A stretch of 64,000 nt of DNA from Chiridota heheva (Eukaryota > Echinodermata > Holothuroidea > Apodida > Chiridotidae): contig JAIGNY010002072.1 in NCBI GenBank assembly GCA_020152595.1, positions 434,001 to 498,000 of the forward strand. The letters run 5' to 3'. The translations under genes and the position numbers were made by a program. This document shows, piece by piece, positions 4,101 through 58,500 of this stretch; the first letter of the stretch is position 1, and each line of letters opens with the position of its first letter. The notes under the pieces were generated by a model that was not told where the DNA came from, made no database searches, and worked only from the letters and a program-made list of their open reading frames with translations.

Positions 4101-7100
4101 AATTTTGTGGAGATTCACTTGGTGAAGAGAGAAATGCTACATCGTATGATTCTAAGGCTTGTTCTTCCCTTAGCAAAGATGAAGCATTGAAAACCATTGA
4201 TAAGAAACTTGTAAACTCTCTAGTAAGTCATGATATTAAAGATAATGTTTGTTTTAATTTATCATGCACTTCATCTGAATTACATTCTACTTATGAATCT
4301 TGTAAAGCTGGTGTTTTTAGTAATTCAGAATTTGATGATAAACAGGGTTTAAAAATTGATCATCACAAAATACTGAACAAAAGCAGACATTTTAAAACTA
4401 TTGAAACAACAAGAACAAATCTTGAAGAAACAATCATCGAACCACTTGATGTTTATAAAGAAAGTGCAAATCAAGGATGTACTGATCTACCTTCTGTTTA
4501 TGAGATACGAAGACAAGATGTTACGTCAATTAAAATTAAGGAGATATCTAGCTTTCCTATAAATGCTAAGGCGGAACCTTCGCCACCATCCAATGAAAGT
4601 ATGGATGAGGTGAATTGGTTTTTTGATGGTAAGTTTGACAGTGGTGATGACAATGATGATAAGCGTATTTGTAAAAGCATTATTTCTAATACTAGTTTGG
4701 CGAAAAACATCAAAGGTTTTGCTCAGACTTATAAAAGTTGTGAAAATAAATCTTATAAATTAGATGCTGCAAGCAAAATATTTAAACAAAAGAGGTCCAT
4801 ACTTGGGAGTAATGTGGATGCAGACTGTGTGGATGTCAAGCCGGATCACCACAGAATTCTCTCATGCAGCAGACACTTTCAGACAATAGAAAAGTCTGCA
4901 GAATCATTGCAGAGAGGAAATGTCACTCATTTTTACCACGACATGCATCATTATGGGAATAAAAGTAACATTTCTGGAAGGGCTACTGTAGTTACAGGCC
5001 AAGATGGCTGCCAAGGAGCTGTGCAAAATGCCACCTATTTTTCTGATGTTGCATTTACACTTGATTATTCAAAAGATGACACTTGTGCACCACCTGCTTA
5101 TGAAGAAAATACTGAGGATGGAAGGAGTGTTGGGATACATAAAGAGTTTTATTTGTTAATCCTATTGTGACTTCAGTCAACACTGGTAAAACAAAGGTCT
5201 TGGAAAATTCAAGTGTTCTCCGAAGAGTGGGGAGAAAAAGAATACAGGAAGGAAACGTAGAGCCAGGATCAGAAACAGTGTCTCTGTTTGACTTGGGGTA
5301 AGTGTCTGAAGATCAGTTAAACTGAGTGAGAAAAATGTTTTGGTTTTTCTTTAGTGAACGTAAAAATGATAAATTATAGGTTTTATAGATGGAATTAATT
5401 GGAAGATTTCAAAACAATAAAGAATGAGTACATTAAATGATCTGTTTAAGTCTTTTGCAAGGAAACATCATCTTTTGATGTATTATTTGTTTTGTATTTG
5501 GTTTTCTATGCTTGATTTATTAACGCACCTATATCCCTTTATAAACTCTTTGAACTTTTGTTCTCAGTAGTGTTATCATGTACAGTATGTATACAATTCT
5601 CTGTAGAAGTGTATATTTATCCAAATTGTTTTTGATCATTTTTTTGTGTACAAAATATTTATTTACAAATTAATTTTTAATCATTGTTTATCTTCTCCAA
5701 ACTAAAATTTGTAAGTTTGTTTATCTTCTCCAAACTATTTGTGTTTGTATCTTTTTCTAACAGAAGGAAATTAGCTCATGGGTATAATGCAGAGATGGAG
5801 CTAGCTGTCAGTATTGCATCCAAGCAGTGGACACAAACCCAAAGGTATTTTGTCAATATACTCTTAATTCACTAGGAAGTGGAAATCTTAACAAATTTAT
5901 TTACATGGAAAATATTTCTGTCAGTCACTTAGTAAAATATTGTTATTGTGATATGAATAAAATTCATTCATTCATGAATTATATTATAATTAATATCATG
6001 ATGGAAACTCCTCTCCTTGTAAAATAATGCTATGCCACTAATGAGCAAAGTTTTATGTATCTTATTATTGACAAATACCACTTTTACACTGTATGGAAAA
6101 GTTCATTTGAAGTTACATGTAACCTCTAGATGGTTGAGTAAAATGGTTTGATATCAAAATGTCCCCTGACAATTTCAAAAAAAAAAATTGTGATAACAAT
6201 ACAATTATTCTGTTATGCCATTACTACATATATACTGAAAAAAATATGTTTCTTTTCCTTTAGCATTGACTTGGCAACTATTCATGTGTGCAGCATCACA
6301 GGTCCCCCAACCACATGCTCTCATGTAACAAGTAGTATTGTCCTGCCTCTGAATCCAGAGCAGAAGCAATCTGTGCTAAACAGGCGGAATGAGCCTCTGA
6401 GAGCAATTGTAAGTGTTAAAGAGAGATTTTTATTGTGTAAAATAACATAAACATATAAGAATTCACTGCCATCTACTATGAGCAGAGTAATACAAACTTA
6501 TTAATTTCTTTTGCAAAATTTGTCATATGATTGAAAATATCTGTGCATTTTACTTCTACATCCTCTGAAATGTACTGCAGTTAAAATGTTTTGTAAAACA
6601 GAGGAATAATGAATGTGATGTGGACTGTAGAGATATCATTCTTTGACAAAAGGTTTGGACCAGGAGATGTTGGGCTGCAAAGAAGCACATGCTGTGTTAC
6701 TGTTTCTCTAGACATTCTGCAGGAGTTATGGTGAACTGTTTTCTTAGAATTTGCCACAAGTCAATTGACTGATTTTTATTTTTAAAAAATTCTCTGATTT
6801 TCAGCACTAATTTGAGTTAACTGCATGTCTGTATTGGAAATAAACAATAACAATAAGTTCCAGAAAAATACAATTGGATTTTTTGTGAAAAACATTGGAC
6901 TGATTTGTGAAGTTGACCTTGTTAGTCTTTGATATTAATTGTTTTAAATTCGTCACAGAAATAATTGGATTGTTGTTGGATGCATGTTGTGAAATTGCCA
7001 AAGTCTTCAACAAATTTTGTTTGCAATGGTTCAACTTGCTTGAAAATCAGGGTCTGTTTTTGGGGTTTGCAATGGCAGATTCATCCAACAAATTTTAGGT

Positions 7101-10100
7101 TTGCAATGGTTCATGACTTGCCTACACAGGGGTCTGGTTTGGGGTTTGCAATGGTTCATGACTTGCCTACACAGGGGTCTGGTATGGGGTTTGCAATGGT
7201 TCATGACTTGCCTACACAGGGGTCTGGTATGGGGTTTGCAATGGTTCATAATTTACCTACACAGGGGTCTGGTTTGGGGTTTGCAATGGTTTATTACTTG
7301 CCTACACAGGGGTCTGCTTTGGGGTTTGCAATGGTTCATGACTTGCCTACACAGGGGTCTGGTTTGGGGTTTGCAATGGTTCATGACTTGCCTACACAGG
7401 GGTCTGGTTTGGGGTTTGCAATGGTTCATGACTTGCCTACACAGGGGTCTGGTTTGGATTTTGCAATGGTTCATGACTTGCCTACACAGGGGTCTGGTTT
7501 GGGGTTTGCAATGGTTCATGACTTGCCTACACAGGGGTCTGGTTTGGGGTTTGCAATGGTTCATGACTTGTCTACACAGGGGTCTGGTTTGGGGTTCTAT
7601 GACAGTCCTGACTGGAAAAGATGTTTTGCTGCTGGATTTGAAAGAGAAGAATTTCAAAAAGAATTTGTGGTTGCTTTCACAAGATAAAAAAGTTACAATC
7701 AATCACACTTTTTATTCATCACAACATCTATACAAAATTGAAGTATGAAGATTGCAGTTGACCACCTTACAAATGCTATTAGCCATTGCAAATGTGAGAA
7801 GTCACTGTTCGTCTACAGGTTGCTGTTCAAGAACGAATAACATTTTTAGTACAAATAGAATAAAAGTACAATATTTACAATTCATAAATTGTAAATTAAG
7901 TTTTAGCTTTCTGATTGGTTAATAGGTGGTCTCGAATACATTCAAACCAGCAAGATGTACGTTAGGAGAATGATGATGATCAACACTTTCCATATCTTAA
8001 CACCCTTCTGAAGCATAGTAAATGTACATCATCCTAGGTCTCAAATGGCCTAATTTTAGATTTGTAATTACTCTGTTTGGCTAATCGATGGTCTGAAATA
8101 TGTTCGAGACCAGACTGACCTGTATGGCAGTAAACGTATGTGCCCCTCGGAAAAATATTAGCCTACATTGGCAAAATAATGAAAAGTATATCCAAGGATA
8201 TGCACAGAAATATAAAAAAATGTATGAGAAAAATAAACCAACCACAAAATTCTAGCCACAACAATCACGACTCTCAAGACTTTCAAACAACTGCTCTGGT
8301 TTTGATTGGAGATCATAGCAACCTTTCTTAATTAGGCCTAGGCCTATTTTATAAAAATTTAAATCAGGATTATTAAATCATTTCCACCCTTCCTTTCTAC
8401 TGACCAGAACTGAATTTTGAAAGCCTTGAAAGTCAATATATGGCCCCCAAGTAATTAAATGCTGCAACGTTTACTGACACTGTTATTAAAATACCTCAAA
8501 TTGTAGATATGTTACTAACAGTACACTATGCATTGTATATTAATACAGTCCGCCGTGTGTCTGTGTATATACATAACAGAATGTTAGCCTAGCCTATTTT
8601 GATCACAAAACAAATGAGCAGCCGACTGACCTTAGCACAATTAAACCTAGATTCGACGTTCGTAAACTTGATATAAATTTCTTCAAAAGAGGCCTAAAAA
8701 TAAGCCACATTCATCATTTGAGTCTTACCTTGGTCCCTAATTCACCTGTGGCTGTTTATACTTTTCCAAGACCTTGTTTTTCAACTTTGTTCTACATGTT
8801 CAGAGTGCTCTGTGCTAGCCGGTTTTGCGATTCAGTTTTAACTGTCTGTCAAAACTTGATAACCTATGACCTGTCCATTTTAATGTATTTCTTTATTATT
8901 GTTCAAAAACAACGAAGAGCTTCTTGCGGTCGTACGAAAGTAATATGAAAAAGATGTTTGAGAACAAACATGTGTTTTGTTTCATTGAGTTTAGCGAGTA
9001 ACTTTAATCTGTACGGTCAGATCTTTGACTGGTCGGTTGGTCGTCGCAACAAAAAATGAAGAAATGTTGAAGTAAATGACATCACAATGATTATTAGGAG
9101 AATATGAGAAGTGATCAAAATAAATTGGCTTTTTTTCTATATTTTCACCTAAAAAATTAAATATTTATGAATGGGGATAAAAGCGAGGGTGGCCGGTCTC
9201 AAATGGCATTTGAGACCGGCCACCCTCGCATTTATCCCCTAAATACAATACAAGTACAAATCCTAGTTTTTGATTCGTGGTAGCTGATTGGTGGTGACCT
9301 GTCATCCTCATATCAACATGCCGGACACAAAGGGTTCGTGAAGATTACAACAGTGTCAAGTCATGTGGCAGAAATAAGTGGATCTGATGAAAGCAAATGG
9401 TTGGATAAAGTTTCATCCATTTTTGATAAGGTGAGTGAAATATGATATTGAGGTGCTGTGTAGAGGTTTAATTTTACAAGAATTTTGTAAATTTATTGCC
9501 TCTATAGTCTTGATTCCTGTGCCGTATAACTCAAAGGAGGTCAGCTGTTTTTGGCAAACGTTTTTTGAATATTTATATTTACCATGCATCAATCAGCATG
9601 TAACAGACCTTTTCATAGTTTCCTAAGTTCAAAGTGAAGAGAAGAAATTTGAAAACAGTTAGTCTTGGTCAGTCATCAAAGACCTTTTTTTTTCAAATGA
9701 TTGCCCTTTATAAAAGCCATGACATTTTGAAATTTTTCATATACATTTCAGGAGATTTATAGTTTTATAATTTCCAGTTTGGAAGCTTTCTTGTTCATTT
9801 GTTTAGAAAAAGAAATGTTAAAATGAAAATCTTGTTGTGTAGAAATTGTTTAAATGCAATAGTATAATTTTTACCATAATACAACAGTAAGAAGCAAAAT
9901 TAGCTCAAATGAAATATTTCTATTTCTTTCCATTTTATTTGGTTTTAGCTTCATTTGTCGCTCATCCTAGTAAAGGGCAAAATAGAAACAGCCATGAACC
10001 ACCTATGCCTCAGCAAAAACATTGTGGCAGTGTCTGATGTGCCGTATGCTATACTGCAGGAGATGGCTTATCGATGTGACAGTGATTTGGTGCATTACAT

Positions 10101-19279: not shown

Positions 19280-22200
19280 TCAGTAAAGTGTAGCGAGGGA
19301 ACTGAATTTCTCCCAGGGGAATTTGACATCAGGTTCCAAAATCTTCTGCATGCGGATCATGCTGGTCCTGATTTCTTCAAAGTACTCCACCAGGTGAGTT
19401 TCGTCACAGGATTTGTACTTTGACATACTTAGGTAATAGCTGAAAGAAAAGGAAAAAGTTAATGGAGATCAAAATTCTGTAATGTTTTTCAATCATGAAT
19501 TTTAAACATTATTTGTACGCAGTGAATTTGTACCCCAGATTTTGGCAGGTTTCATTCTTTAGATTGACTCCTTAAAAAAAAAAAATAATACCATAAACGT
19601 TTTACTGGAGGACCTGGGTTTGATCAGCCACAAAAATTGGACTTTTTTCCTTGCTCTTGATAGGAGAGTAGTGATGATGATAAACTTTAGGGACTTGTTG
19701 CTTTTTCTCCATGCTCTTGATAGGAGAGTAGTGATGTGATGATAAACTTCAGGGTTTCTTGTGACAATTTTTAAGGTCAAACTTTGGAAGGCAAAATATT
19801 GAACGGCTAAAAATACTGCTTACTTTGTACAAAATTGTGTGTTTTCTTTCAAATTTTAGATCTTTTTAGAGCCAAATAGTGTTATATTTCATGTAATAAT
19901 GTGAAATAAAAGTGATTAAGAGGTGATAGATTCAGCCCAAATTGCTACGCAAGATTTGAACAAAATTCAAGTCCATGGCCCAACCTTACTCTTTGGTTTA
20001 CATTTATATTCTTGGTATTAGATGGTTATATTATATCATACTGATACTGCTATTTTGCAATGAAAAATTACAAGTTTCTTGTATTGAACTTTACAAGATG
20101 TAGATGGACTGACCTGTCTTTGAAGGGGTTGTAGAATACCCCGTAGCCATTATGAACCATTGGGGATGTTCCTCCTGTGCCCCAGTCAGAACCAAGTGTG
20201 CTGGTTGATAGGATGAAGTTACCATTTCCACCACTTGAAAAGAGAAATTGAAAACTATTATTTTAGGGATGCTTGGTGTATATTTTTGAAGGATCACTTT
20301 TGTCAAAGTTGAGTAGAAATGAGGTAGGATTTCATCATTATTTCTTGTTTCTTTGAATGAGAAAACCAGCCGTCTTCATTCATTCATGACATGTTCTTTT
20401 ATTTAAACTATCAATCCAGTTAATTGTCAGCCAATTTAATCAAAGTTCTTCTATTTCAACTATCAATCCAGTTGATTGCCAGCCAATTCAATCAAAGTTC
20501 TTCTATTTCAAGTATCAATCCAGTTGATTGCCAGCCAATTCAATCAAAGTTCTTCTATTTCAAGTATCAATCCAGTTGATTGCCAGCCAATTCAATCAAA
20601 GTTCTATTTTAACTATCAATCCAGTTGATTGTTAGCCAATCAAAGTTGAGAGCGTGATGAAATTTTACAACATTTAGTCGTAAGTCAGCTTTTTCTGTAC
20701 ACATGGCAGGTTTTACTGTAGAAAATGTTCTGAAATCTTCCATGATATAAGAAGTTTACATCTGTAAAATTGATAAAATCTGTAAAAGTTAAAGTCTGTA
20801 AAAATCTCAATTTCTTTTTTGGCTATTTTTATGATATTTAATCTACTGCACTGTAACTTGTACTTCTACCAAATTGTCTCAAGCCAATTGATAAATAAAT
20901 TTGATGCCCCATTAATGTTTAATTAGCCAAACCTAAAAACCTTTTCAAGTCTGAATTAGCAATTTTGGTAGACTAAATTAAACAATGTCACATGGTTGAA
21001 ATGTATGTGTCCATAATGGACCAATGGTATACCAGAGACCGCAGAGCAATAAATAAAGCGGGGGAGGGGCTGAAGAAGAAAAAGGGTGAAAATGAAAGGC
21101 GACATCACCTTCCTAATAAACACTGTACACTAACTCCCAACCATATTAGTACATAATAATTTCCCGGTCACAAGTGGAAAAATTACACTAGTTACTTAAG
21201 TTCCATCAGTGATTGCTGCTAATCAGAAAATCTCCTTTAATTTTTCTGGAAATCTTCAATTTAAAAAAAAAATTCTTCATATTCGAGCCCTTTGGTGAAT
21301 TGTTTATCAATTTAAGGGAAATTTCAATCACTTTGGTGCAATTTTTCGGCACATACTCACAGTACTCTCCTTAAAATTTTAGTGAAATGTTTGACAATTT
21401 TAGGGAAAATTTGTTTCTTTTTGGGCAATTTTCTCCAAGTTTGGGCAATTTTCTTCAAGTTTAAGGAAAATTTTGTCAAGTTTTGAGATATTTTGTTCAT
21501 TTTTGGGCACTTTCCTTAAAATATTTGTGAATTATTTGACAATTTTAGAGAAATTTCAGGCAATTTTCTTTGATTTTAAGGAAAATTTTGTCAATTCTTT
21601 TTTTCTGACAATTTGTTGACAAATTTTAAATCATGCTACCAAATTTGCCTTCAATTTTTCAAAATATTCTTTGATTTTTGGGAAATTTCGTTCATTTCTG
21701 CTAACTTACCTTAAAATTATGGTAAACTGGTTATCAATTTTAGGAAAATTTTGTCCATTTTGCAATATTAAGGAAATTTCCATCATTCTTAGGCAATTTT
21801 ATTCAATTTGGGGGTAATTTTTGGAAAATTTGATAAATTTCATTTAAATTTACAAAATTTTCCTTTAATTTGATGTTAATAATTTCCTAATTTTACCTCC
21901 CAACCGGCCCGGGAAAACCAGGAAGTTGAAATCCTCTTAGGTCATTAGAAAAAAAATTGAATTGGGGGGCTGTCTCTGCGGTTTCTGTATACTGGGGAAA
22001 CTTATCGACCAATCATATATGGGGACAGAGCAAATGCTTGCAAACATTATTTATATATGTGTTATACATGAATGTAATACGCATGCGCATTGTTTGCAAC
22101 TTTTCCTCTAGCAATGCAGCTGATTGATTGGGTATAAAGGGGGACTTTCGCCAGCAGTTGATTGGTAAAAAAGTGTTGAAGAAATCTTGTTCGGCTAAAA

Positions 22201-25200
22201 TCTGTTTGAAAAGGTCTTATTAGTGCTCCAAATATTCATTATATTTGCCGAGAAGAAGAGAAGTGTTGGTATCATAAGGGTGAAAATTGTTTTTCAATTT
22301 CTTTTGTTATGTCATGAGGACATACTTGGAATGTATTGCACAGTACCTTCTCACAAAAGCTGGGTCCGTGAAGATGTCTGGCAATGAAAGGCCCATTTCT
22401 TGTGACATGATGTATAATCCGAGTAAGTGACGGTCAATTCCAAATCCTTGCAGGCACATCATGGCTACCATTAAATGCTTGCTTCCTGCTGCCCTCATTA
22501 AAGCTTGTCTCTGCTCATCCTTAGGAATGGAATAAAAAGGAGAGAATGAGAATTGTAATGTCATAATTTGCTTTCCACCAGTGGAAGGAATTTATGCAAA
22601 TGTATAATTCATTCCACTTGTGAAGAAAAATATGGTAATGATGTTTACTTAGTTGCCATTTCAGTTAATTGCAATCTGTAATAATGCTTGAATATATTGT
22701 TCTTTGTGTTGTATATAATGATGCAGAACGCAAGATGGAGAAGATATTACACACGTCTCCAGGTTGCATTCTTATACTATTTGTTACTTTTGCATGACGT
22801 CGCTTAATGCTACAGTTGATCAATCTAAAGCCTTATTATATGCAGTACAAGCCAGCACAACTAGTGAAAGACTCTAGGGCTATATGGTTCTCTTACTGTT
22901 TTCTCAGGGTTGTTCATTGCTTTGCACCATTCAAGAACCTCTTGTGTTGCTGACCGAATGGTCTCCGTCCGGCCATGATAAAACATCCGCGTCGTTGAGG
23001 TCTCGTAGGTTGGTGCTAATCTGTGAAGGAATTGATAATGTAAAAAGTAATTTACACTGGTGAACAAAAATTAGAAGAACCTTTACCTTTTCATATGCTA
23101 TGTATTGCAGACATGGTCTGATTATACAGAAATTAGTCAAATACAGACAATGGAACGTCCGTGACTTGGTGATATTTTGTGCAAAATTTTATTGTTTAAA
23201 AATCTTGTGACAAAATGAACATAAACAGATGTATTAAAATTTGTCTGACATTTTGTGACATGTTTATTGTAAATGATTGATTTTACGAACTACAAGTATG
23301 CAACTATGAGGCAAAACCAGGGCTTTCTCATCTTCTCAAACCATCACTTAATATATTTGAGAAAGAATGAAATTCTCATTTTCTTGCTTTATACCTGCCA
23401 TGCTTTGTGTAGTATGCTAGCTGAATAGCAAGTTGAATGTAAGCATCGGGATGAAAGCCTGCTTTCTTCACCCATGTCTTTCCATAGCATGGAAATGCAC
23501 CGCACAAGAATTCTACATCTGCAGCCTGTTGAAGATACACAGAGACATCAATAACGATGGTATGGTTAGTAAGATATTATTTCATTTTGGTGATCAATTA
23601 ATTTAAGTGAAAAATAAAGTGTCTTTTGGTACCAGTATTGCTTCAGCAGATATAAGATACCTTTCTCAAAAATCCCAGACTGTTCTATTGTTTCTTTTTA
23701 CATGACATCTCCCCCTCCCCCTCCACCTCCCCCTCCCCCACCCTCCACACATTTCTTTCTATTGTTTTACTAACAGCCCTGGTTGCCATTGACCAAAAAT
23801 TTGTTTCTAGTAGTTCGTGATAGGTTAAATGCTCCGTGATTTTAATTATATGAATTCCTAGCAGGTTGTTGTAGAAATGGTAAACTACATAATTCTTTAT
23901 AACCTACTGTAATCACAATTTACATGTTATCTTCCAATTGAAGAGACTGACAGTTTTTTTTCATGTTTAACTAAAATATATTTAAAAAGATACGAAAGTG
24001 GCAGGATTTAAAGAGGACCTAATATTCCTCAGAACAAGAAAGAAAGAAAGGTGCATTAAGTAGAAGATCATATCATACATCCAAAGTTTGACTGTAAAAT
24101 GCTCATTTTCTCAGCCAAACTGACACCCAGCTGAATCTTATCCATCTCCATGTATTCCTATGCATCTACCTTTGATAAAAATGTACCTCTGACTCAGTGA
24201 ATTTTTTAACGTACTAACTTAGAAATTTTGGTCGCCCAGTGAACAAAATTCTGATGCACTGGGCGACCTGGATTTTTGCCTTGGTTTAACAAAATGGCTG
24301 CTCCCATACAGTCGTGGAATAAAAGTTTTTAAAACATACCACATCATATGAAATAAAGTGTATGCATGTTAAAATTTACATGTTCCTTTGCCAGTTCATG
24401 ACACATTAGTTGCCCTAGGGGTAATTGTGGTCGCCCACTGAAATGTCCTTAAAATATTCATTGCTTTGACTTACAAGTTTGGTGTAGGTCTTAGTAGCAT
24501 GTGTCTTGGCATCCTCCACCTCTTGATCTATTGTGAAGATAATCTCTGCAGGAACCTCTGGGGCCTTTCTCGTTCTTTCTCCCTAAAAAGTGGAAAATTA
24601 AAGTGAAAAAAATGTTGTATTCAGGGTTATAAAATATGTATAGAATATTTGCATTGTTATGACCCATGGCTTAAATACTGTTAATGCAGGACCATGATTA
24701 TTTGGTTTATTCCATTTTCAAACGGGTGATTTATTTAATAAAGCGATAAAGTATATGTAAACTTTTCTCGTTTTTCATTCTTTTTAGTTATTTTTTATGC
24801 ATTTTAATCAATCTAATACAAAACTTTGATAAAAAGATTCATGTTTTGGCATCATGTTTATATGCGTATTTAATGCACGATTCAATGCTGGGCCATTCTA
24901 CTAGAGTCAAAGTTCTTTTCCCCGTGCATAGAATATGCATATAAACTCTCTGCCACAACATTAATTGTTAATTAATTTCTTCGTTGCTCTTAAAAGAACA
25001 TTAAATGTGTAGGAAAATCAAATCTGTTCCAAGGATAATTACTTTTCTTACCAAACCGCTCCTTTATATTGGGGAATGAGGTGTTTAGTGTCTGTTTCCA
25101 TTTATTACAATCTTGTGCTGGCTATTTGAAAATAAGGTGGGAAAACAGGGGGGAAGGCTTTTGATGTGTGAAAAAGTCAAATATGCAGGTTTGTTGTGCC

Positions 25201-28200
25201 CCCAACTTCGTTGTAGGAAAAATTCAGAATAGTGTATGCATGCGAAGTGCATACAATTTCACAATTTGAGTCTTTTGAGGGCGCTACTTGTGTTACTTTC
25301 TTTAATAATAGATGAGATATATAGTCTCTGAAAAAAAAGGTTTTTAATGTTTGAAAGTGCATGTTCCAACTCTAAAAGGGTATTTTTCCCTCAGAAAAAG
25401 GGCACTTTGTAAACTTGAGAAAAGTAGGAGGGGGGAGGGGCATGTGTACCTTGTTTCCCTGGTTCCGCTGCTTAGGAATTTTTTGTCGTCTGAAGTTCAA
25501 TCTCTCTTTCCATCAAATTTTCATACAAATTTGAATAGATGTTATAAGACATCTTAGTTTGGTCAGGTACATACCTGCAATTTCTAAGCGTCCAACTGTT
25601 GAATTTTGCTTATTTTTATGTTTCAGTTATTGGTTCCGATGTGATAGCGTCAGAAACCTATTCGGTCATGATGGTGTGTGTGTGTGTTACGCTGAGCTCG
25701 TAAACACGATATCTCAAGAACGGTACAGTGGATTCATATCATATGTGGTACACAAATAGCCCATGGTCCGTTATTGTGCCCTAGTGTTTTTGCTGGTGAT
25801 AGCATGCATATTAATGAGTAGGTAAGGCTTAACGTAAACATCTTAAAATGCTCATATTTTAACAACCCACATCTGTTTTGTTTCATATTTGGTAGTTATG
25901 AAGTTATCTAGTGTGTACATGTCCATGGTATAAAAACTTTGAATTTCATAATATGCATAGTGGGTGGGGCTTTATATGATTTTGCTATATAGAGCTTGTA
26001 AACACTGTATCTCAAGAACAATAAGCTGCATTCATGTCATATGTGGTACACATAGCACATGGTCTGTAGATGTGCCCTATGGTGGTGATATCTTGCATAT
26101 CAATAAGTAGGCGGAGCTTAATGTTAAAATCTATAAATGCTCACATTTTAATACTCACATGTCTGTTTTGTTTAGTATTGAATATAATTATGATGTTCGC
26201 TAGTGTGTACATTTTTATGAATAAAAACATTGAATTTCATAAATATGCATAGTGGGCGGGGCTTAAAAGGATTTTGTTGAAAAGAGCTTATAATCACGAT
26301 ATCTGAAGATTGATAAACTGGATTTAAGTCATATGTAGTACACAGATAGCCCATGGTCTGTGGATGTGCCTGATTGGTTTTGGTGGTGATATCGTGCATA
26401 TTAATGAGTAGGTGGGGCATAATGTAAATTTCTTACAATATGAGCAACCGTATGTCTGTTTTGCATCATACTTGCTATGATAATGTTGTTTATTATTATG
26501 CACATGCTAGTATTGTCAATAGGTATTGTCTATTTTATTGATCTGCATGTTGGTCGTGGCTTATTAATAAATATCCTGGAACAAATATTTTATGATATGC
26601 AATGACATGACACTTAATACAAAACTTGCAAATCAATCAGCATATGAAAAAAGCATCGGAACCACAAAACCCTTTGGTTCTGGTTCCTTCAACTGTTCAA
26701 TAAGAAATCTTAGACCTGCCCTAGTATGCTTACCAGCCACTTTTTGTTTTCTTTCAAATAATAGTCCTTGCCCCAGATTGAAAAGAGGTAACTGGTTAGG
26801 CCATCATAAGGTGCATGCTGTAAAGAGAAAAGAGTGAATATGATAAGTATAAATTCGCATAACATATTGCGCCTGTCACCTTATTAAAAAACAAGACTTC
26901 TCCATGCACCACCAGAACAGAATTAACAAAAAGTAAACAAAATCAAAGATGCTCAGTAAATACTTATCGGTGATGACTTTGCAGCTGTGAATACTAAATC
27001 AGAGCCAAATTCACTGATCAACAACCATTTTAGAAAAGCCTAAACACTGATAATCAAATTGAAAACTTCTGTCAATTTTAGACATCATATTTTAGACGCA
27101 ACTTATGATTAATTAGTGTATGTTCCTGTAAGAATTTGATGACTACCGAAAACTTACATCAGAATTTGATGACTACCGAAAACTTACATCAGAATTTGAT
27201 GACTACCGAAAACTTACATCAGAGTTTGATGACTACCGAAAACTTACATCAGAATTTGATCCTATATTTCCGTTTTCATAACAAACAATGTTGAAAGATT
27301 TGTCAAACCAACGATCCCATGGATTTGGTCCGCTTGACGACAGCATTATGTTCTGAGGAGAAAAAAAAGTACAGAATTAACAGGTTTCATCGTAACATCG
27401 TCTCTGACAAACATAGGCGGGTGTAAGAAAATTTTGTTGCTGGAACAAAGCATGATTTTGGGGGAGGGGCATAATATGAACATTAATTATATGTATAATT
27501 TAATACGATTAGATAATGATTAGCAAATCTCTGGGGGGAAAGTGCACCCCTTGCCCATATGGCGCACAGTCCATGCATGAGTTTCTCCGAAAATCACTAA
27601 ATCAGTTAACTATTCACACAAAGGAAGAATACAAGCAATCATTAATCAATCAAACAATATAGAATAAATTATTATGCATGTTAATTGTTCGAGAGACGAA
27701 AAATTACCTCTTCTGTGGTTTTTGGATTCTCCGGGTCCAAAATAAATGTGATGACCGCGGAGTGAATGGTTTCAAAATGTTTTATGTTATTCTTGTCCAA
27801 CTCGCACATGTGTTTGTAAGCCTGCCGAAGAGAAAATCACGGGAAGATAGATATTCACTTTCTTTTATTTCTCTACTACCACTGCCTTAGGGAGTCCTGA
27901 AGGCAGATGCTCTGTCCCCATAACCAGCGATGTTGATACCACTACCCCCTTACTCCAGAGTAATAGGGAAAGGGGGCAGGAAGTGCCCTTTTGAAAGTTG
28001 AGACGGGCCGGAAAAGGGAGTGCCCTTTATTTTAAAGAATTTTTCTTTATTGACCCCCAATCTTTTGGAAAAGTAGGCCTTTTAGCTATTTACCTAATGG
28101 GAAAGCTCAAAAATCTTAAACCCAGAGGCAGAATTTGCCCACTGAAAGTGAAAGAAAAGTCCAATAGTGTGTGTGGGTGAGGGGGTTCTGTTGTAAAATC

Positions 28201-31200
28201 ACGCTAAGATACAAAAAATCATAATACAAAAATATACATGGGTAGGGGAGGGGGGGGGGAATTTCTGGTGTAAGATCACGCCAAGATACCAAAAAACATT
28301 ACACAAAAATATACATTTGGAAAACAGTGGGGGTTGGGGCAAGTTTCCCCTTGCTCCTCAAATCCCGTATATGCTCAAACCATATGTGTAGGAATTGGTT
28401 TTTGAAAACTGACAAAAGTGCCTCCTTTTCAAAGTGCCCTTCAATCACTGTCAAATCACTTGAATTTCTAATTATATATTTCTTATTTAACAGGTCAGTG
28501 GCACAGCAACTGGTAAGAAAAGTATAACCGCATGAACGACCCCAAACAAAATTTAGGGGTCCGAGCAAATGCTACTGTGAAAACCTGTACCAAAATGCAG
28601 ATTTCCCCGAACGGCCCAAAGGCCCTATTTGTACTGTTAATGAAGAATATTTTCATTATCACTGCAGCACTGCACTACCATTCGTCACGTAACAGTAAGT
28701 TTGAAATGAACAAGGAAAAAATAATAATGCGAGTCGTGATGGTATTTGTAAATCATGTTATTACAAAGCTAGGTTTACTTTGATATATTATATCATATTT
28801 GTATTAACTTGTAAGTTATAGAGGCAAAACTAGCTAAATTGCTTTGGAGGTAGCAAAAAAGTTCATTTGAATCGTTAAACATTGACCATTTTTACAGCGT
28901 TTTAGAACCTCAATTTCTTTTATGCAAATTTTGCGATTTATTACAGGGCGACCTTTGGTAAATATTTTCTTTTGGTTGTTAAATGTCTATCATAATTCTT
29001 TGAGGTGATGCAGAAAATTATGACCAAATGTTTTTGAGAGTTTGCCATTTGCCCTAAATAGACAGGAGTAGACTTTCCCATCATTTTAAATTAACATTTT
29101 TAGCTGTTCGCCGAGTCACGCATCACAAATTTTGCATGAATTAAAAACTAATCAAACTTTGATCAACCATGCCTAAAACCTAAAAGCGCATTTTTTCAAA
29201 TTTAAGAACTGATCTGCTGATACTACTTCAACCAAAATAGAAGTTGCTAAATCGTCATGTTATTTAATGAAGGCTTTACGAAATAAATTAACATTTTTAG
29301 CTGTTCGCCGAGTCACGCATCACAAATTTTGCATGAATTAAAACTAATCAAACTTTGATCAACCATGCCTAAAACCTAAAAGCGCATTTTTTCAAATTTA
29401 AGAACTGATCTGCTGATACTACTTCAACCAAAATAGAAGTTGCTAAATCGTCATGTTATTTAATGAAGGCTTTACGAAATAAATTAACATTTTTAGCTGT
29501 TCGCCGAGTCACGCATCACAAATTTTGCATGAATTAAAACTAATCAAACTTTGATCAACCATGACTAAAACCTAAAAGCGCATTTTTTCAAATTTAAGAA
29601 CTGATCTGCTGATACTACTTCAACCAAAATAGAAGTTGCTAAATCGTCATGTTATTTAATGAAGGCTTTACGAAATAAATTAACATTTTTAGCTGTTCGC
29701 CGAGTCACGCATCACAAATTTTGCATGAATTAAAAACTAATCAAACTTTGATCAACCATGCCTAAAACCTAAAAGCGCATTTTTTCAAATTTAAGAACTG
29801 ATCTGCTGATACTACTTCAACCAAAATAGAAGTTGCTAAATCGTCATGTTATTTAATGAAGGCTTTACGAAATAAATTAACATTTTTAGCTGTTCGCCGA
29901 GTCACGCATCACAAATTTTGCATGAATTAAAAACTAATCAAACTTTGATCAACCATGCCTAAAACCTAAAAGCGCATTTTTTCAAATTTAAGAACTGATC
30001 TGCTGATACTACTTCAACCAAAATAGAAGTTGCTAAATCGTCATGTTATTTAATGAAGGCTTTACGAAATAAATTAACATTTTTAGCTGTTCGCCGAGTC
30101 ACGCATCACAAATTTTGCATGAATTAAAAACTAATCAAACTTTGATCAACCATGCCTAAAACCTAAAAGCGCATTTTTTCAAATTTAAGAACTGATCTGC
30201 TGATACTACTTCAACCAAATAGAAATTGCTAAATGTCCATGATATTCAATGAAAGCTTATGATCCACATGCATATTTGTATTCATGTTGGTATTACATTG
30301 TATTACTGAACTATGTTGTTTTCATTTGCGGCTTTTCTTTATAATTTTGCAAAATACTCTTTTCTTACCTTAGCCCAGCTTGTTCTGTCGTCTGCTGTAA
30401 GTACTCCTATCCGTTGTCCTGGTTCTTTGCACCTCTCCTTAATAAAAGCTAATTGGCTAGAAAAATGAATATATGAATCCTGTTAACGGTTGTTTGTATA
30501 TTGTTTTTTGATTACAATTCATGATTAAGTTTCATTGACTGTGCATTAAACATGTTCCTGGCAACATTGAGCATTTGAAAATATCATAGAGATACCAATC
30601 AGATTTTTAGAAATGTTGTCAAAACACAATAATTTAGTCTATTAAAGTATTCTGAGGCTAAAATTAACGTGGTAATAGATATACAATACAATTCAATGTT
30701 TCTGATTGGTCAAAATATTTAAACAAATCCTGCAGCTCCCTGTACAAAAGTAGACAATCCAATTGATAACCGCCGCAGAAGTGACGTCACTTTTATGTGC
30801 AAATTTTCTTGATATGAGATTCCCTTTTTAAATCGAAGACCAAAATAGGTTATCTCAAATCTGGACCTGAACCATATTTTCTGAACCTTATTAACTTATT
30901 TTACTTCACCCATTCGACATTCGATACCCCTCCCCCATCCCCTACACCAATGGGTCCATCTCCCTGCCATTTTATATTTCAGAAATGTCCTGATTATGCA
31001 ATAGAGTATTACTTACTGATATAAATCATAGGCACCATATTGATTTCCATCCTCATCGAACAAATCTAATTTGAACAGTCTACCATTGCACATGACGACC
31101 ACATGGGAAGGGCAAGGTCCTTCATCAGCTGCTCGAGGAGAAATGAAAGATAAAGCGAAGAATATTAGAGCATGCTAAAAATTGCCACATTTTATACGAA

Positions 31201-34200
31201 GATACATTTTTTGATAAAGCTAGATTTGTATCATCTCAACAACAAAAAAAGTCTTTAAAATGTATTCTTTTTACATGTTATCTATCCTAATATTAACGTG
31301 GTGGCATACAATCTATTCCAAAATGAACTTTGATTGGTCGAAATTGTTGTCCACATATTTTGCTTTTTTAAACTTTTTTTTTTTCTTCAAATATTCTCTG
31401 AAAGTGCAGTGAAGGACAATCCCCCTGCTCCAGGAATTACGACCCTGCGTTAAGACTTACCTGTTTTAAAGTACCTTACAATTTGGTCTCTCGTCTCTCC
31501 GGGTATTCTTGATGTGCAAAAGAGTGACCTATTTTGATCCATGGTTATAGTTTTACCTCGCATTTTCATAACTGGGTAGTCTTGTCTAAAAGTGAATGAC
31601 AAAGAAAGTGTAATACATACGTGGTCGTCCTAACTTAAAAATACATTCCCAACCCACCCCACTCCTCAATAGTTATAACCGTTTTTCTCATCTGTATTTT
31701 TTCTCTCAACAAAAACAAGTGAAACAATTTTCTTACGTATACCTGAAAATCATGTAGCAAGTTTTTTTTATAAGATTACATATTGGATATAAATTAAAGA
31801 TAGCTTGGAGATGCTTTGTTACCAGTCTGCCAGTACTGCTTTTTTACCAATACCAACTCGCATTTTAAAACTGTATATACATGCTGGCATGAATGAATGA
31901 AATCTTACTACGGGAAACATATCATCAAAGTGTCTCAGACTGACACATGCATTACTTATAAAGGGCATGTTTATGCAAAAGAAAATCATCTTTTATAAAT
32001 CTCATCAACCCATTTATGAAGGATTAGTTTTACTATTTGTACTTTGAAAATTGAAATACTTCATATGGTTTTAAAATAAGTCAAGAATTTTATTTAAAGT
32101 ACTGACTCACAAAAATGTTTTCAGATGTAATAAGCCATAATTAATACTCCTTTGTTTTAGCAAACCACAGGGGTTTAACATAGAACAATGAACACTTGAT
32201 ATTGAATTGATTCTACGCGCAGACGTGAGATGCACAAAGAAGAACAACAATGACTACAAATGAGTTTCATCTTATGAAGAATTATATTATTTCTAGGAAA
32301 ATACTTGATATCCATTATAAACAGATAGATAGACTGATGGACAAACCTTGAACTAAAAATAAGTCTATGCGCGTGAAAACAATCCGTCAAGAAACCAAAT
32401 GATGTACGGTACCCTCATAACTAAGTGGTGAAAGGAAATTGCCTCGCTTTTTTTTTTTTTTTTTATAATAAAACAATACACAATAATCATGATGATAAAT
32501 ACAATAAATATATGCAGTATAGCGCAGTAAAAAATACGTATAGTTGTTAGCAATATTATCTAATGTGTTGATGATTGTGATTATATTCTTTATGTAACTT
32601 ATTTTGGCACTAGGAAAAGCTTCGATTTATGTCGTTCAAGTCCAGACACGTAGCCAATGGGGAGCCATGGCTCCCCCCCTCTCACCCCTCCCTCCTACTT
32701 CCCTAACCCAAAATTGAACCTACTGACTTATGGAAATTCAGCTAAAGCAGTGGGGTATATGTCGTCGTCTCGAGTCTTATATCTATGACTGATAATTTGA
32801 CTGACTCACCATGACACAGCCGTGCATTACAGACAGAAAGAGGTGGGGTCCAACCGCGACTTTTAATGCAAACGCCGAAAAAGATAGGGGTTCAATGGAT
32901 CTTTATAACGAGGGAGGTTTGACACTCAGTGCTGCTGAGGGAGGCAGGGTAATAATTTAGCGGGCGGCGGGGCCCCCAATTGTATTGAGTATATTTTGGG
33001 GGAACTAACAAATAAAATGACCATAAAAAATAACCACCTGGGCAAAAATCTGGAAAAAAATCCATGCTTGATATTGGCGAAAACGATAAAGTTGGAATAG
33101 AAATTGGAAAAGAAATAGAATAGTTTTTTGCTCTTCATAATTTTTATGAGGGGCCCTTAAATGTTATTTTGCTCAGGGACCTCGCGATTGTCTCTGCGGC
33201 CCTGCTCCTCCCCCTTCCTCCCCTTCCTCATCGGGCCACTGTTACGTTGTTAACTACTTTAGCCAAACTATTAAATATTTTCAAATACTCACTCTCTCAG
33301 CAGAGTCAAAAACCTTCCCGCCGTCCACATAAAATTTGCCCCACGTTCAAGTTGGGTGTTTGCTCTTGGCGTCCACATCGTCATGGAAAGAGCATGAACA
33401 GCCATCATGTTTGATCTGCATGCTAGAGGTTCACGCCCATCAAGGTACGCTATATCCTCCCACCACCGTTCCACCTAAATATATGGAGAGTATAGAGAAA
33501 CGATGAAGGGAATATGATGCATAATGCATTCGTGCTATAAAATCAAGACTGTATCCAACCTTTCGGGTGGGGGGAGGGGTGAACTGCTGCTGACCCAAAA
33601 TACTCCAACAATAGGCCTTCCAGTTTATCATTACACAGGTTCGGAGGCTGAATTGAAATCTTTATGGAACTTTTTACCTTATTTTGTTCTCTTCATCTTG
33701 TTTTGAGGCAGAGGAAGGGAGGGGGGGGGGGGTGGACGACCCTCTGGTTATACCGATAAAAGTAAAAAGTAATTACAATTGTAAACACATTTCATGTATT
33801 CGTTTTCCATGTGTTGAAATAGCAACAAGCAGTAATTTTCTTTTGTTATAACATATTTCTATGTATTTTCCTATTCTGCATTATCAAGATAAAGATGAAA
33901 TACAAATATTTTTACATTTCTTAATGCTGACGGGCATGGTTTACAAACAAATATGTGGACCAACAAGAAAAGGTTTAACCGAACTCATTTCTTTTTATCG
34001 TGGGACGCTCATTTCTCATTTTTTGGGAAAACTTATTTTTCACATCTTGGCTCATCTGTCAGTCTGTTCATCTTATGCGACTGCCATGGCTGTAGCTAGG
34101 TAGGGCGTCTTTTGGATCGAAGGGTCAGACGCTGGTTCTTGACGCAATGACAAATTACAAGACAGTTCACGAGAAAATGTATGTTATACCTATTAGCACA

Positions 34201-35875
34201 AACTTACCCAGTTCTTTTGTGTTTTTGCTCGCTGTTGTAACTTTTCATGAATTTGTTTTCCAACACCATTTTTAAATTCCTTGATGATATTCGTTGTATC
34301 ATTGAATTCTTCAGGTGTTAAAAATGGTTTCACTGATAGAAAGAAAATAATAATAGATATATTAACAACAAATCATAGTTGATAGCATTATTAGTACATA
34401 CAGATATATTGGATTAAACAGTTCAATTTGAACACTTGTAGGGACGAGGGCTGTTACATATTTGACAAAGAACAGATACAAAATACATTTTCTGAAAGTA
34501 TAAAACATAACAAGATGACAGTCCAAGAAGGGGTAGTCACCCCATAAAAAGCCTAAACTAACACCGCCACCAGCACCACAAGAAATTACAGAAAAAAGCA
34601 AAGGAGCCCAGAATTAGTAAAGAACTTATCAATGTTGACTCTAAAATCATGGAGCTAACTACCTACTCCGGCAAACCATTCCACTCTTTAAGAACTCTTT
34701 GCAAAAAGCTTAAACGCCGAATATCTAACCGTAAGAACTCTTTGGTCAACTTCAACTTATCACGTGTCACATGATAAGGATTACTTGAAACATGCAAGAC
34801 TAACAGGAAGTCAAACCATCACTACCAGATCGTATATTAGTGAAAAAAGGGGCTACATTGCTACGACTGACAAAGTCATGAGTGTGGACCCAAGTACAGA
34901 CCGGGAGCATGCCTATTAATGGGAACATAAATGTTCATAAAAATGGGAACATTTTGTTACATGCAAGCCGCCATTTTGTGATATTTCCCATGATCCTTTG
35001 CTATCCTAACGTTAAAGCCTTACATAATGTTACATATTTCAAATTTGAAATATGTCTGGGAAAAATATTTTAAGTTTGCTAGGGGAAACTTAAAACTCAT
35101 GAAAATACCTTCATTACTGTCGTGGCTAAAACTTGTCTACTCCTACTTGAAAAGTTATAAATATTCAAGTTGCTCCAAATCGGGAAATTTACAATTTTCG
35201 GAAAATATCTTTCAATTGCGGAAAGTTTTTCTTCCTTTACAGAAATTTTCTTCACTTTTTCAAGAGTTTCCGTCATTTCCGGGCAATTTTCTTCCATTTT
35301 CGCAAAATATTTTTTTCATTTTCGGGTATTTTTCTTCGATTTATCGGAATAATTTTTTGTAATTATCAGAACATTTTGCTCATTTTGGGAAAATTTTGCT
35401 CGTTCTGGGAATTTTTTGGCCAATGTTTGGGGGCCACGCCCCAGTTAGTGTGTTTAAAATGGCCCTGCCACTAATACTAACAAAAATTTGCAATTACTGG
35501 ACTTTTCGATATACTTTTAAACTGTGGATGTGACTGAATGAATTGCATGTGGGAAGAGGGATCAAAGTGGAAATATACACGAAATTTGATACGGTAATGC
35601 ATGAAATCAAGTTTCGTCGATAACAATGGCTTTCATAATGCATACAACCAGCGATAAAGGTTTTATATCTTTTGCAAAGTATCTCACACTTTTGACTTTG
35701 CCCCTTATTTTCGGTAGACAAATCCCACCTATCAGCCTATGCACACAGCTAAGATTTCGAAAGGTATTTTACCTGATTCTGAATATTTTTTCATCGTTGC
35801 CGCCAAAGACGGGAGAGGAAGAGACGGTAGGTCGTCATCGTACTGGAATGTTCGCTCCTGTTTCTCCTCAGGCAT
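19280..35875 (-). CDS. CROT: CROT, peroxisomal carnitine O-octanoyltransferase (15 exons, complete)
   Basis: Minus-strand exons: 35875-35773, 34332-34208, 33474-33293, 31585-31461, 31128-31017, 30456-30369, 27821-27708, 27352-27248, 26817-26734, 24582-24475, 23525-23395, 23020-22897, 22519-22347, 20233-20114, 19439-19280. They sum to 1854 nt, 617 codons plus stop (human CROT 612), with all phases matching and no internal stop. CROT transfers medium-chain acyl groups between CoA and carnitine in peroxisomes. Diagnostic motifs are ERTFQYDDDLPSLPLPSL at residue 7, TQLERGA, the catalytic SDHAPYDGL with His at about residue 319, YHGRTETIRS, GIDRHLLGL, FILSTS at 531-536 and PMVHNGYGVFY. These match CROT better than CRAT, CPT1 or CPT2. 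The ATG has an in-frame TGA upstream and no presequence. The C-terminus SSLATLY lacks a recognisable PTS1 tripeptide, which is odd for a peroxisomal enzyme. Confidence 0.97.
20393..20645. repeat. ~55-bp tandem repeat, about 4.5 copies, in CROT intron 14
   Basis: The unit runs TCAAAGTTCTTCTATTTCAA, then TATCAATCCAGTTGATTGCC, then AGCCAATTCAA. The edge copies are shortened. Confidence 0.9.
21023..21995. mobile_element. Micro-repeat element 1: inverted ends around degenerate AT micro-repeats
   Basis: The left end GTATACCAGAGACCGCAGAG and the reverse complement of the right end (GTATACAGAAACCGCAGAG) are inverted repeats. The interior 21240-21890 is built from endlessly varied words such as TTTTGGGCAATTTTC, AAGGAAAATTTTGTC and GGAAATTTC. 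It is bounded by conserved segments: TTTCCCGGTCACAAGTGGAA on the left and TTTTACCTCCCAACCGG with GAAATCCTCTTAGG on the right. The same architecture recurs at 37494, 41424 and 62455. It lies in CROT intron 13 and has no ORF. Confidence 0.7.
24230..24268. repeat. 12-bp perfect inverted repeat (hairpin) in a CROT intron
   Basis: GGTCGCCCAGTG and CACTGGGCGACC flank a 15-base spacer. A related word, GGTCGCCCACTG, occurs near 24430. Confidence 0.7.
25690..26565. repeat. Three tandem copies of a ~293-bp repeat in CROT intron 9
   Basis: GTAAACACGATATCTCAAGA occurs near 25701, with diverged forms about 295 and 587 bases further on. Each unit then has CATATGTGGTACACA, AGCCCATGGTC, a TTAATGAGTAGG-like box, a GTCTGTTTTG word and ATATGCATAGTGGG. 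The copies have diverged by base changes and small indels. Confidence 0.85.
26734..26817 (-). CDS. CROT: CROT exon 9, with the catalytic histidine
   Basis: This 84-nt, phase 0 exon encodes HAPYDGLTSYLFSIWGKDYY and eight more residues. The first codon is the catalytic His; the preceding Asp of the SDHAPYD motif is the last codon of exon 8. The active-site motif is therefore assembled across a splice junction whose donor is duplicated in tandem (27131-27260). Loss of this junction would remove or displace the catalytic residue. Confidence 0.93.
27131..27260 (-). repeat. 30-bp minisatellite that multiplies the CROT exon 8 splice donor
   Basis: Four full 30-base units start at 27131, 27161, 27191 and 27221, followed by a partial unit from 27251. 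On the minus strand each holds AATTCTGATGTAAGTTTTCG, that is, the last codons of exon 8 (Asn-Ser-Asp) and its GTAAGT donor. The true exon end is 27248, reached through unique coding sequence. The downstream units are intronic copies of the exon-intron boundary, each with an intact GTAAGT. Confidence 0.93.
29086..30236. repeat. 196-197-bp satellite-like tandem array, 6 copies, in CROT intron 6
   Basis: TAGCTGTTCGCCGAGTCACG occurs at about 29101, 29298, 29494, 29690, 29887 and 30084. The units are almost identical over their whole length; single-base changes include one A insertion in an A-run and one ATGACTAAA variant. The last copy decays after 30216. No ORF runs through the unit. Confidence 0.95.
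34497..34850 (-). mobile_element. CR1-type LINE 3' fragment in CROT intron 1
   Basis: It is homologous to 13030-13350: CATAACAAGATGACA, CCCATAAAAAGCC, TTAGTAAAGAACTTATCAAT, GGCAAACCATTC and CATGCAAGA occur in the same order. Only the 3' end remains, again in minus orientation. Confidence 0.8.
35165..35420. repeat. Micro-repeat tract in CROT intron 1
   Basis: Degenerate words such as TTTCGGAAAATATC, TTTCCGGGCAATTTTCTTC and TTTTGGGAAAATTTTGC match the interior of the micro-repeat elements. Clear inverted ends are not visible here. Confidence 0.6.
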
Positions 35876-55500: not shown

Positions 55501-58500
55501 TGGGTGGGATGTGGGTCATGATGCATTGGTATATTAGTCAGGGTGGATTGGCATGTAGAACAGGGTGGGTTGTCATGTTCAACAGGATGGGTTGGCATGT
55601 GGAACAGGGTGGGTTGGTATGTGGCACAGGGTAGGTCGACATGTAGGATAGGGCAGAATGGCATGTGGTGGGGTGTCATCTGGATATCAGTTGTGATGGC
55701 GTGTGGGTCATGCAAATGGTGGAATGACATACAGCAAGGATTCTTAATTAAATAATTTGAAGAGCCATCATTTCACAACAGCTTCAGGCCATGGGCCAAT
55801 CGCGTGGCAAAATCAGCATCATGTGACAAACAATACCTGCAGGCTGAATACAAACAAGTTGAGAGCGTGCGCTATTAGAAGGATGTACGCCAGATGTCGA
55901 TGATTATCTTATCTACCTTCCTTTGACAAGCTGCGAGCCCAATTTATAGCGGAACTAAAGATAAGATTTAATTTGATAAGCCGCAATATTTTAGTGAGCT
56001 GATCTGCCTAGAAAAACCCCCCAAATAAACTAGTATTTTGTGATTTTTAACGATCTTATTCGGATTACTCTTACATGCATTATTGTATTGTATTGTATTA
56101 TGTAATGACTATTGTTCACGGGCCAGATTGGATTGTCTGGCAGACAAGATGGCCCGCGAGCCGCTTATTAAGAATCGCCGACATATAGTATCTGGTTTAC
56201 AGGTTAGAGTCTGGAATATGCATTATTAGCGGTGGGGGGATTTGTCATTAGTAAAGGCACTGCTTAAAAATTTGGCCTACAATTTTGAAGCAACAAATTA
56301 ACCACATCATTCAACAAGAATGACTTTGCATTGTAACATTGAAGTATAAATAGGTCTAAGCTTAATAGTTCATTTCACCTTTCCCCAACAGCAAAGACAA
56401 ACAATGCCAGCATTGATTACAGTTACTACTTATATTACAAAGGATTGCCATTATATTCAGATGTGTGTCACTAAAAATACCATGTAACACAAGTGGGAGT
56501 AGTTGTTATCTTGAAGGAGCACAGATAAGGTGAAACTGTATACAGTTTTGTGGTTTGATAAACAAAGAAATTTAAAACTTGTAATTGCAGGACAAAATAT
56601 GATAGAATACATAAAGACTTTGAGGAATCTGAGGCTATGACATCACAACTAGTCTGATTTCAGTCGCTTCTACATGAGTGATCTTTTTAAAAGAATAAGA
56701 TTTTTGAATGCTTTTTTCACTATTTTGTTGCCTTTTAAGTCCTTGTTTATATACATTTAGATAGACATGCTTGACCACTAAACTAATCCTTTAGAATTAT
56801 CTTTTGATGTAGTTATTTGAAATAGTTGAGTTAATTTTCTTTACGATTCTATATAAGATACACTTGCATCACAAAGCAAAACAAAAATCAACAACTCGGT
56901 CAAAAGTTTAATGATATTGATAATTTCAGATACAGTTGTAATGAAAGTGAGTGTGTTATGCCATTCTTTTGTTTAAAGTAGTCTTTTCATTTTAAACACA
57001 CTCTGACAAATAACATGTTTTTACCATAAGATTTTGCATAGAAGCTTTGGTTTAAAAAAAAAAAGTTTTGTGTATTGAAAAATTGAGTTACACTTTTATT
57101 GGTGTATATTGAAATGATTAAGTTGATAATTTTCATAGATTTTAGTTTATTAATAGGCCTGGAAGTGTACTCCAATACTTCTTTTAATGTCATGTCCACA
57201 GGAAAAGGAACATTTAGTTTGTACATTGAAATTTGTATTTACAGTTTGTAATAATCTCTGCACTTGTTCTGTTCTTGTTGTATTGGATTTGGACTTTTCT
57301 GTGTTCGACGATGAGTGAGCATACAATTACAATGAAGGGGGTCGCCGCGCGTATTCGGTTATGATAGTAACAATGCTATCACGAAACGCTTAATACGATC
57401 CGGACGGGAACACAGGTACGACGTACGGACAGACATAACATTGACAACCAAGTCAATGTCTACGGCCTTTGATAACCAGTTGTGGTGCATTGTGTTCTGT
57501 TTTGTGTTCCTTTTTATATCAAAAATATATTTGATTCAATTACTGAGCAAATGTTTGCAGATTAGATTCAAACCTCTGATCTTGTGTGTGACATATTGTT
57601 CATGAACCTTTTCATTGTATTGATGACCAGGTACACTGAAGCTAAGGTTGGATATCTATGGTGCATTTCCCAGGCAGAAAAGAGGTTGCAATCCATGAAA
57701 GAGTCTGGAGAGTCGCCAGAGAGACTTCAGAATGTCCAAGCGCTTCTTGGGGTGTGTCTTGGCACGACAGGTCATTTCATGATGGGAATGAATAAGCTAG
57801 AGGAAGCAGAGAGGATGTACACTCGGGCTATTGGGTTGTGTGAGAAGGAACTGGTACAAGATGGGAAGCCACACCCTCAAGTAAGGGGCTTCTGATTGTT
57901 TTCTGTTTACACTTTCTTAAAAGTTTTCAGTTCTGGAGATTTCAAATTATAAATATGTCACAAGTTGCTTATTTGAAAATGAATGGTGTGGTAATACTAC
58001 TCTAAAAGAGTGATGTTACACCCTCATTGAACAATTTGTAATGTATTTTATTCAATTTAAATTTTTGTTCCTGCTTATTTCCAATCATTTTTCAAGATTT
58101 CTTCAAATGGTTAATTACAGTTACTCAACAACACTATTTTACTACTTTGCCGACATAACCATTTCTTGTAAGTAATAAAATCTCAGTACAATTTTTCATT
58201 AAAATGCACAAAGACCGAGGGATAGGAGGATCTGGTGTTACTTCTTGTCTTATTTTTCCAATTTCATCACATATTTGGCCTGTAAACTGACTTACAATAT
58301 CTCTCTCTGCAACAGAAAAGGAGTTTTGAATACTTACTTCACCGTGTTATTTCTTCTGTTGCCCTTTACCATTTAAGATAAACATGCTTGGCCATTGAAC
58401 TCTTCCTGAATATGGAAACTATTCTGACTGTTTTACTCCTGTTACATTATATTCTTTGGATCAATCTTAAATTTGATCATTCTGAAATCTTCATTCTGTT

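Follow-up and report, generated by a model that had tools for sequence, protein, structure and literature searches.

A 64,000-nucleotide stretch of the genome of the holothurian Chiridota heheva (positions 434,001 to 498,000 of contig JAIGNY010002072.1; hereafter the window, with a GC content of 35%) carries a CROT gene on its minus strand, and at the end of coding exon 8 of this gene lies a minisatellite in which the exon end and its splice donor have been copied together. The gene was modelled by tblastn with motif queries, inspection of splice sites and a scripted model. The resulting 15-exon model and the match of its product to mouse CROT agree with an earlier note, made from the letters of the window, that had placed the repeat at coding exon 8 of CROT on this strand. 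All 14 introns are GT-AG and the frame of 617 amino acids is intact; therefore the gene shows no sign of decay. Compared by phmmer with chains of solved structures, the protein reached 517 bits for mouse CROT and lower scores for carnitine acetyltransferase (CRAT, 288 bits), choline acetyltransferase (ChAT, 260 bits) and CPT2 (201 bits); judged by bit score and not by a tree, the gene appears nearer to CROT than to the other three enzymes. The features of the gene and of the junction between exons 8 and 9 are as follows (here and below, a slash within a sequence marks an actual or possible splice junction).

19280..35875, minus strand: the entire CROT coding region, in 15 exons that encode 617 amino acids with no internal stop (gene model; phmmer)
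27248..27352, minus strand: CROT coding exon 8, 105 nt long and both beginning and ending in phase 0; array unit 1 has its exonic portion in the final 13 nt (27260-27248) (gene model; gapless alignment to mouse CROT)
26734..26817, minus strand: CROT coding exon 9, whose first codon, CAT, aligns with the His of mouse CROT DHAPYD (gene model; alignment)
27131..27260, minus strand: minisatellite, four full 30-bp units plus 10 bp of a fifth (Tandem Repeats Finder, TRF; unit table)
27260-27231, 27230-27201, 27200-27171 and 27170-27141, minus strand: full units 1 to 4
27242..27247, minus strand: authentic donor GTAAGT (gene model; same GAT/GTAAGT in a paralogue on contig C1667)
27212..27217, minus strand: decoy donor 1, GTAAGT, at +30 (unit table)
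27182..27187, minus strand: decoy donor 2, GTAAGT, at +60 (unit table)
27152..27157, minus strand: decoy donor 3, GTAAGT, at +90 (unit table)
27233..27235, minus strand: in-frame TAG of unit 1, after GTA AGT TTT CGG, that is V S F R (translation, frame 0)

The boundary array and its donors

TRF describes the minisatellite at 27131-27260 with a period of 30, 4.3 copies and 98% matches. One unit joins 13 nt from the end of CROT exon 8 to 17 nt from the start of intron 8; the repeat crosses the exon-intron boundary, as proposed earlier for an array that grew by duplication of the boundary itself, and the splice signal GAT/GTAAGT is copied in 4 of 4 full units. A single base differs among all four, unit 2 reading AAACTC where the other three, which are identical, read AAATTC. 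The claim that the exonic end word and the donor are common to all units thus holds for the donor and fails for the word, in which unit 2 has one mismatched base and units 1, 3 and 4 have none. With a single substitution separating its units, the array seems either recent or homogenised, and so few differences give no means of judging selection on the decoys in either direction. Four GTAAGT at 30-bp spacing are expected about 2e-9 times per window from base composition, and a 26-bp core has four matches in the window versus none in each of 100 shuffles; the observation of a donor-copying array is confirmed as real. An own-genome DNA search with 27100-27360 (261 bp) matched one place, the window itself, at 100% identity, so that no further haplotig of a different copy number was observed. 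The partial fifth copy, ATCAAATTCT (27140-27131, minus strand), runs into TACAG, and the end of the array (27126-27140, minus strand), where this partial unit passes into AAATTCTTACAG/G, is acceptor-like.

The GTAAGT words start at 27247, 27217, 27187 and 27157, one real donor followed by exactly three decoys, where the earlier note had counted three or more. All four share the context GAT/GTAAGTTT, and U1 pairing energies computed on the context around each site are equal at -5.4, as is implied by the description of the decoys as equally good. The first donor can be taken as the real exon end because the alignment to mouse CROT is gapless across the 27248/27247 junction and because the C1667 paralogue has the same junction: exons 8 and 9, when joined, align without gaps to mouse CROT ...CCDHAPYD, and the window reads SD/HAPYDG across the junction. 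From work on mammalian CROT, the His that opens exon 9 is taken to be catalytic. Splicing from a downstream donor would make exon 8 longer by 30, 60 or 90 nt, and the in-frame reading of every unit is ...SNSD-VSFR-stop, with one TAG in each of the four units; the predicted addition of Val-Ser-Phe-Arg and a stop is therefore borne out, and the protein would end four residues past the Asp that precedes the His. Transcripts of this kind would presumably be degraded by nonsense-mediated decay. Masking of the decoys by secondary structure was considered and rejected, given that the four donors differ little in predicted accessibility.

Other CROT-like loci and neighbouring observations

Exon matches place at least four CROT-like loci in the genome (no tree was built): the window gene on contig C2058, one locus on C1667 and two on C3214; most animals are expected to have one. 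The exons of the window gene were searched in the three other loci, and matches to PF00755 on C2, C10, C3188 and C3634 were left untyped. Both sides of the exon 8/9 junction were found in C1667 only, where the intron position is conserved and a single donor, TTAGAT/GTAAGT, is followed across the intron by CAT (His); there is no array at this boundary, and a 55-bp repeat of two copies starts about 100 nt into the intron. The plus-strand locus of C3214 provided the donor side only, exon 9 not being found, and has a single GCTGAC/GTACGT with no array at the boundary, while the minus-strand locus of C3214 provided the acceptor side only, exon 8 not being found. On the two paralogue donors read, the array is apparently private to the window copy. 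More widely, 0 of 37 exon-locus matches in the paralogues overlap a TRF array, the nearest arrays lying 22 and 54 nt away, and the one at 22 nt holds no GTAAGT in the stretch of it that was read; these matches have E values up to 0.02, count overlapping loci twice, and are measured from match ends rather than exon ends. An array of 34 copies of a 19-bp unit begins about 20 nt past the exon 11 donor of the plus-strand C3214 locus (L027:7468-8138), and the part of it that was read contains no GTAAGT but repeats an acceptor-like TAACAG.

No intronless CROT copy was seen in a PF00755 scan, because even the longest of its 69 matches covers 100 of the 574 positions of the profile, although a frameshifted retrocopy would not stand out in such a scan. 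The idea that other alleles or retrocopies might reveal the splicing outcome was rejected in view of the single 261-bp match and the shortness of the PF00755 matches.

Mammalian CROT is peroxisomal and ends in a C-terminal tripeptide, the type 1 peroxisomal targeting signal (PTS1). No PTS1-like tripeptide ends the modelled protein, whose last exon (19280-19439, minus strand) terminates in FSSLATLY; this weakens a peroxisomal location, not the assignment to the enzyme family, and either a missed 3' exon or another cellular location is possible. Elsewhere in the window, open segments at 57566-60218 (plus strand) resemble a TPR protein, perhaps TTC19, although the two segments that were tested matched nothing in Pfam, and an array of 11 copies of a 45-bp unit at 7098-7596 lies inside open frames on both strands (240 and 234 codons on the plus, 149 on the minus).

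Likely behaviour of the four donors

The best explanation of the array, to which we assign a probability of roughly 0.7, is a minisatellite of the type named "mirage" in amphioxus, where the repeats span exon-intron boundaries and many units carry splice signals (PMC3087553); it would be mainly neutral, perhaps leaking nonsense transcripts. The anatomy shows that a 30-bp boundary segment underwent tandem duplication and grew to 4.3 copies, presumably by slippage or unequal exchange, with all copies after the first falling in the intron. The first donor, adjoining the intact exon, would supply most of the mRNA, so that the enzyme would still be made, and some transcripts may instead take a downstream copy, which would bring in VSFR-stop ahead of the catalytic His and lead to their degradation; a regulated function need not be supposed. 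First-donor use with possible leakage is expected because the mirage anatomy and the intact frame were weighed most. That the first donor yields most of the mRNA is probable, and the odds that some use of a downstream donor would be detectable are even or slightly better.

The 11 TRF arrays of the CROT span occupy 2,759 of its 16,596 bp (16.6%), and when they were scattered at random a mean of 4.59 of the 28 splice boundaries was covered (observed, 1 of 28) and at least one donor was covered in 92% of trials (93% in a rerun); random placement takes no account of selection against arrays in exons and serves as a yardstick only. Locally, the boundary array is not very remarkable. In the 1.1-Gb genome, three GTAAGT at array-like spacing occur 19,325 times (8,646 plus 10,679 on the two strands) and the same pattern with the reversed word occurs 51,063 times (25,593 plus 25,470), counts that rest on one control word and in which overlapping matches in one array were counted separately for both words. 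The reversed word being the commoner, GTAAGT is not visibly favoured in arrays, and no enrichment of donor words in arrays was found against this one control.

Several observations weigh against a mainly neutral array read from its first donor. The random-placement result depends much on two long arrays: restricted to the nine arrays of at most 300 bp, the trials cover a donor in 51% of cases, and one 130-bp array scattered alone lands on a donor in 10%. At -5.4 the exon 8 donor is tied with that of exon 10, and among the 14 CROT donors only that of exon 12 is weaker; being on the weak side for this gene, it makes leakage plausible. Predicted accessibility barely separates the four donors, with mean unpaired values of 0.40, 0.41, 0.32 and 0.30. 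The authors of the mirage report themselves state that repeated signals could act as cryptic sites (PMC3087553), two downstream repeat units of a minisatellite in human IFI6 are reported to serve as donors (PMC4526556), and in some carriers of a tandem duplication in human MSH6 the downstream donor is reported to be used, adding a stop (PMC9818763).

The IFI6 and MSH6 precedents, together with the equal U1 pairing at four donors and the in-frame stop in each unit, would suit an array whose downstream donors are constantly and substantially used, so that much CROT pre-mRNA would acquire VSFR-stop and decay; this would amount to an unregulated, mildly deleterious knock-down allele, whose loss of enzyme the three other CROT-like loci could buffer. 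We consider it unlikely, roughly a one-in-five matter, in view of the fully intact CROT frame, of amphioxus mirages, whose regular splicing is reported to be undisturbed (PMC3087553), and of intronic latent donors, more than 98% of which lie behind an in-frame stop and which are reported not to be selected in normally growing cells (PMC3510495). Heat shock widely activates latent donors in human cells (PMC3510495), and the decoys, the stop and the position just before the catalytic His would permit the switch that had been proposed, a regulated one in which copy number would govern the choice between active enzyme and a truncated transcript, for example through latent donors opened by stress or heat. 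The proposal found no support, since no second allele was seen in the assembly, the array is absent at the two paralogue donors read, and tandem GTAAGT is common in the genome without being favoured relative to the control word; such a switch is very improbable. One version of it, a stress-gated ladder of poison donors, silent normally and opened by heat or stress, that would halt CROT before the catalytic His and let repeat number set the enzyme level, is quite as improbable. That the extra units are an assembly artefact missing from the real genome is scarcely to be expected: tandem arrays are error-prone, and the draft of one amphioxus mirage is reported to have been aberrantly assembled (PMC3087553), but the array is short at 130 bp, is internal to a contig of 498 kb or more, and has a substitution of its own in unit 2.

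Comparison with known boundary repeats

Mirage minisatellites are the closest named kind, the CROT array having both of their sequence features, a repeat that spans the boundary and units that bear the signal. They were reported from cephalochordates in Adh3 and the globin genes BflGb6 and BflGb9, with copy-number instability and reverse transcription PCR (PMC3087553). For the host lineage of the window, searches gave no match to COX1 and none to the GFP family, the latter also without a match in any control. At 30 bp the CROT unit falls within the 10-72 bp range of the Adh3 units, and BflGb9 duplicates the 3' boundary of its exon 2 as the CROT array duplicates the end of exon 8 (PMC3087553). 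Among human segmental duplications, gene-modifying variable tandem repeats are reported with a mean unit of 30 bp repeated four times, some of them at exon-intron boundaries (PMC2812944). The CROT exon 8 array itself was not met in the literature among the matches listed, in searches that were not aimed at the host organism; it adds a mirage-type array in CROT, a gene other than those of the reported mirages, and in a genome that, with its 1.1 Gb and the 35% GC of the window, does not look like that of Branchiostoma and is probably not amphioxus.

The IFI6 gene (6-16, G1P3) has a minisatellite with a short, donor-like unit of 12 bp, which Turri in 1995 reportedly described as having multiple splice donor sites. 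In IFI6 as in CROT, a minisatellite at an exon end offers several donors, and in IFI6 they are usable (PMC4526556); downstream donors there lead to protein isoforms, whereas the CROT decoys lead to a stop after four codons. The MSH6 variant c.3936_4001+8dup, in which 74 bp holding an exon end with its donor are duplicated in tandem, leads to exon skipping (PMC9818763), and it resembles the CROT array in that downstream use adds a stop; it differs in being pathogenic, with two copies of 74 bp and no array. The published cases do not agree on which donor prevails when several are equal, and the suggestion that the first always does is too strong, since IFI6 and MSH6 use downstream copies even though mirages are reported undisturbed.

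The importance of the array for the biology of the animal is most likely minor. With four donors of identical local sequence at equal spacing and an in-frame stop between each, it would offer a natural test of what guides spliceosome choice beyond the site itself, whether order, distance from the exon or reading frame, the last in accord with the idea of suppression of splicing. Latent 5' splice sites share with the decoys the arrangement of intronic consensus donors preceded by an in-frame stop (PMC3510495); their context is unlike that of the real site, whereas the CROT decoys match the real site in every base and would make a cleaner natural test than ordinary latent donors.
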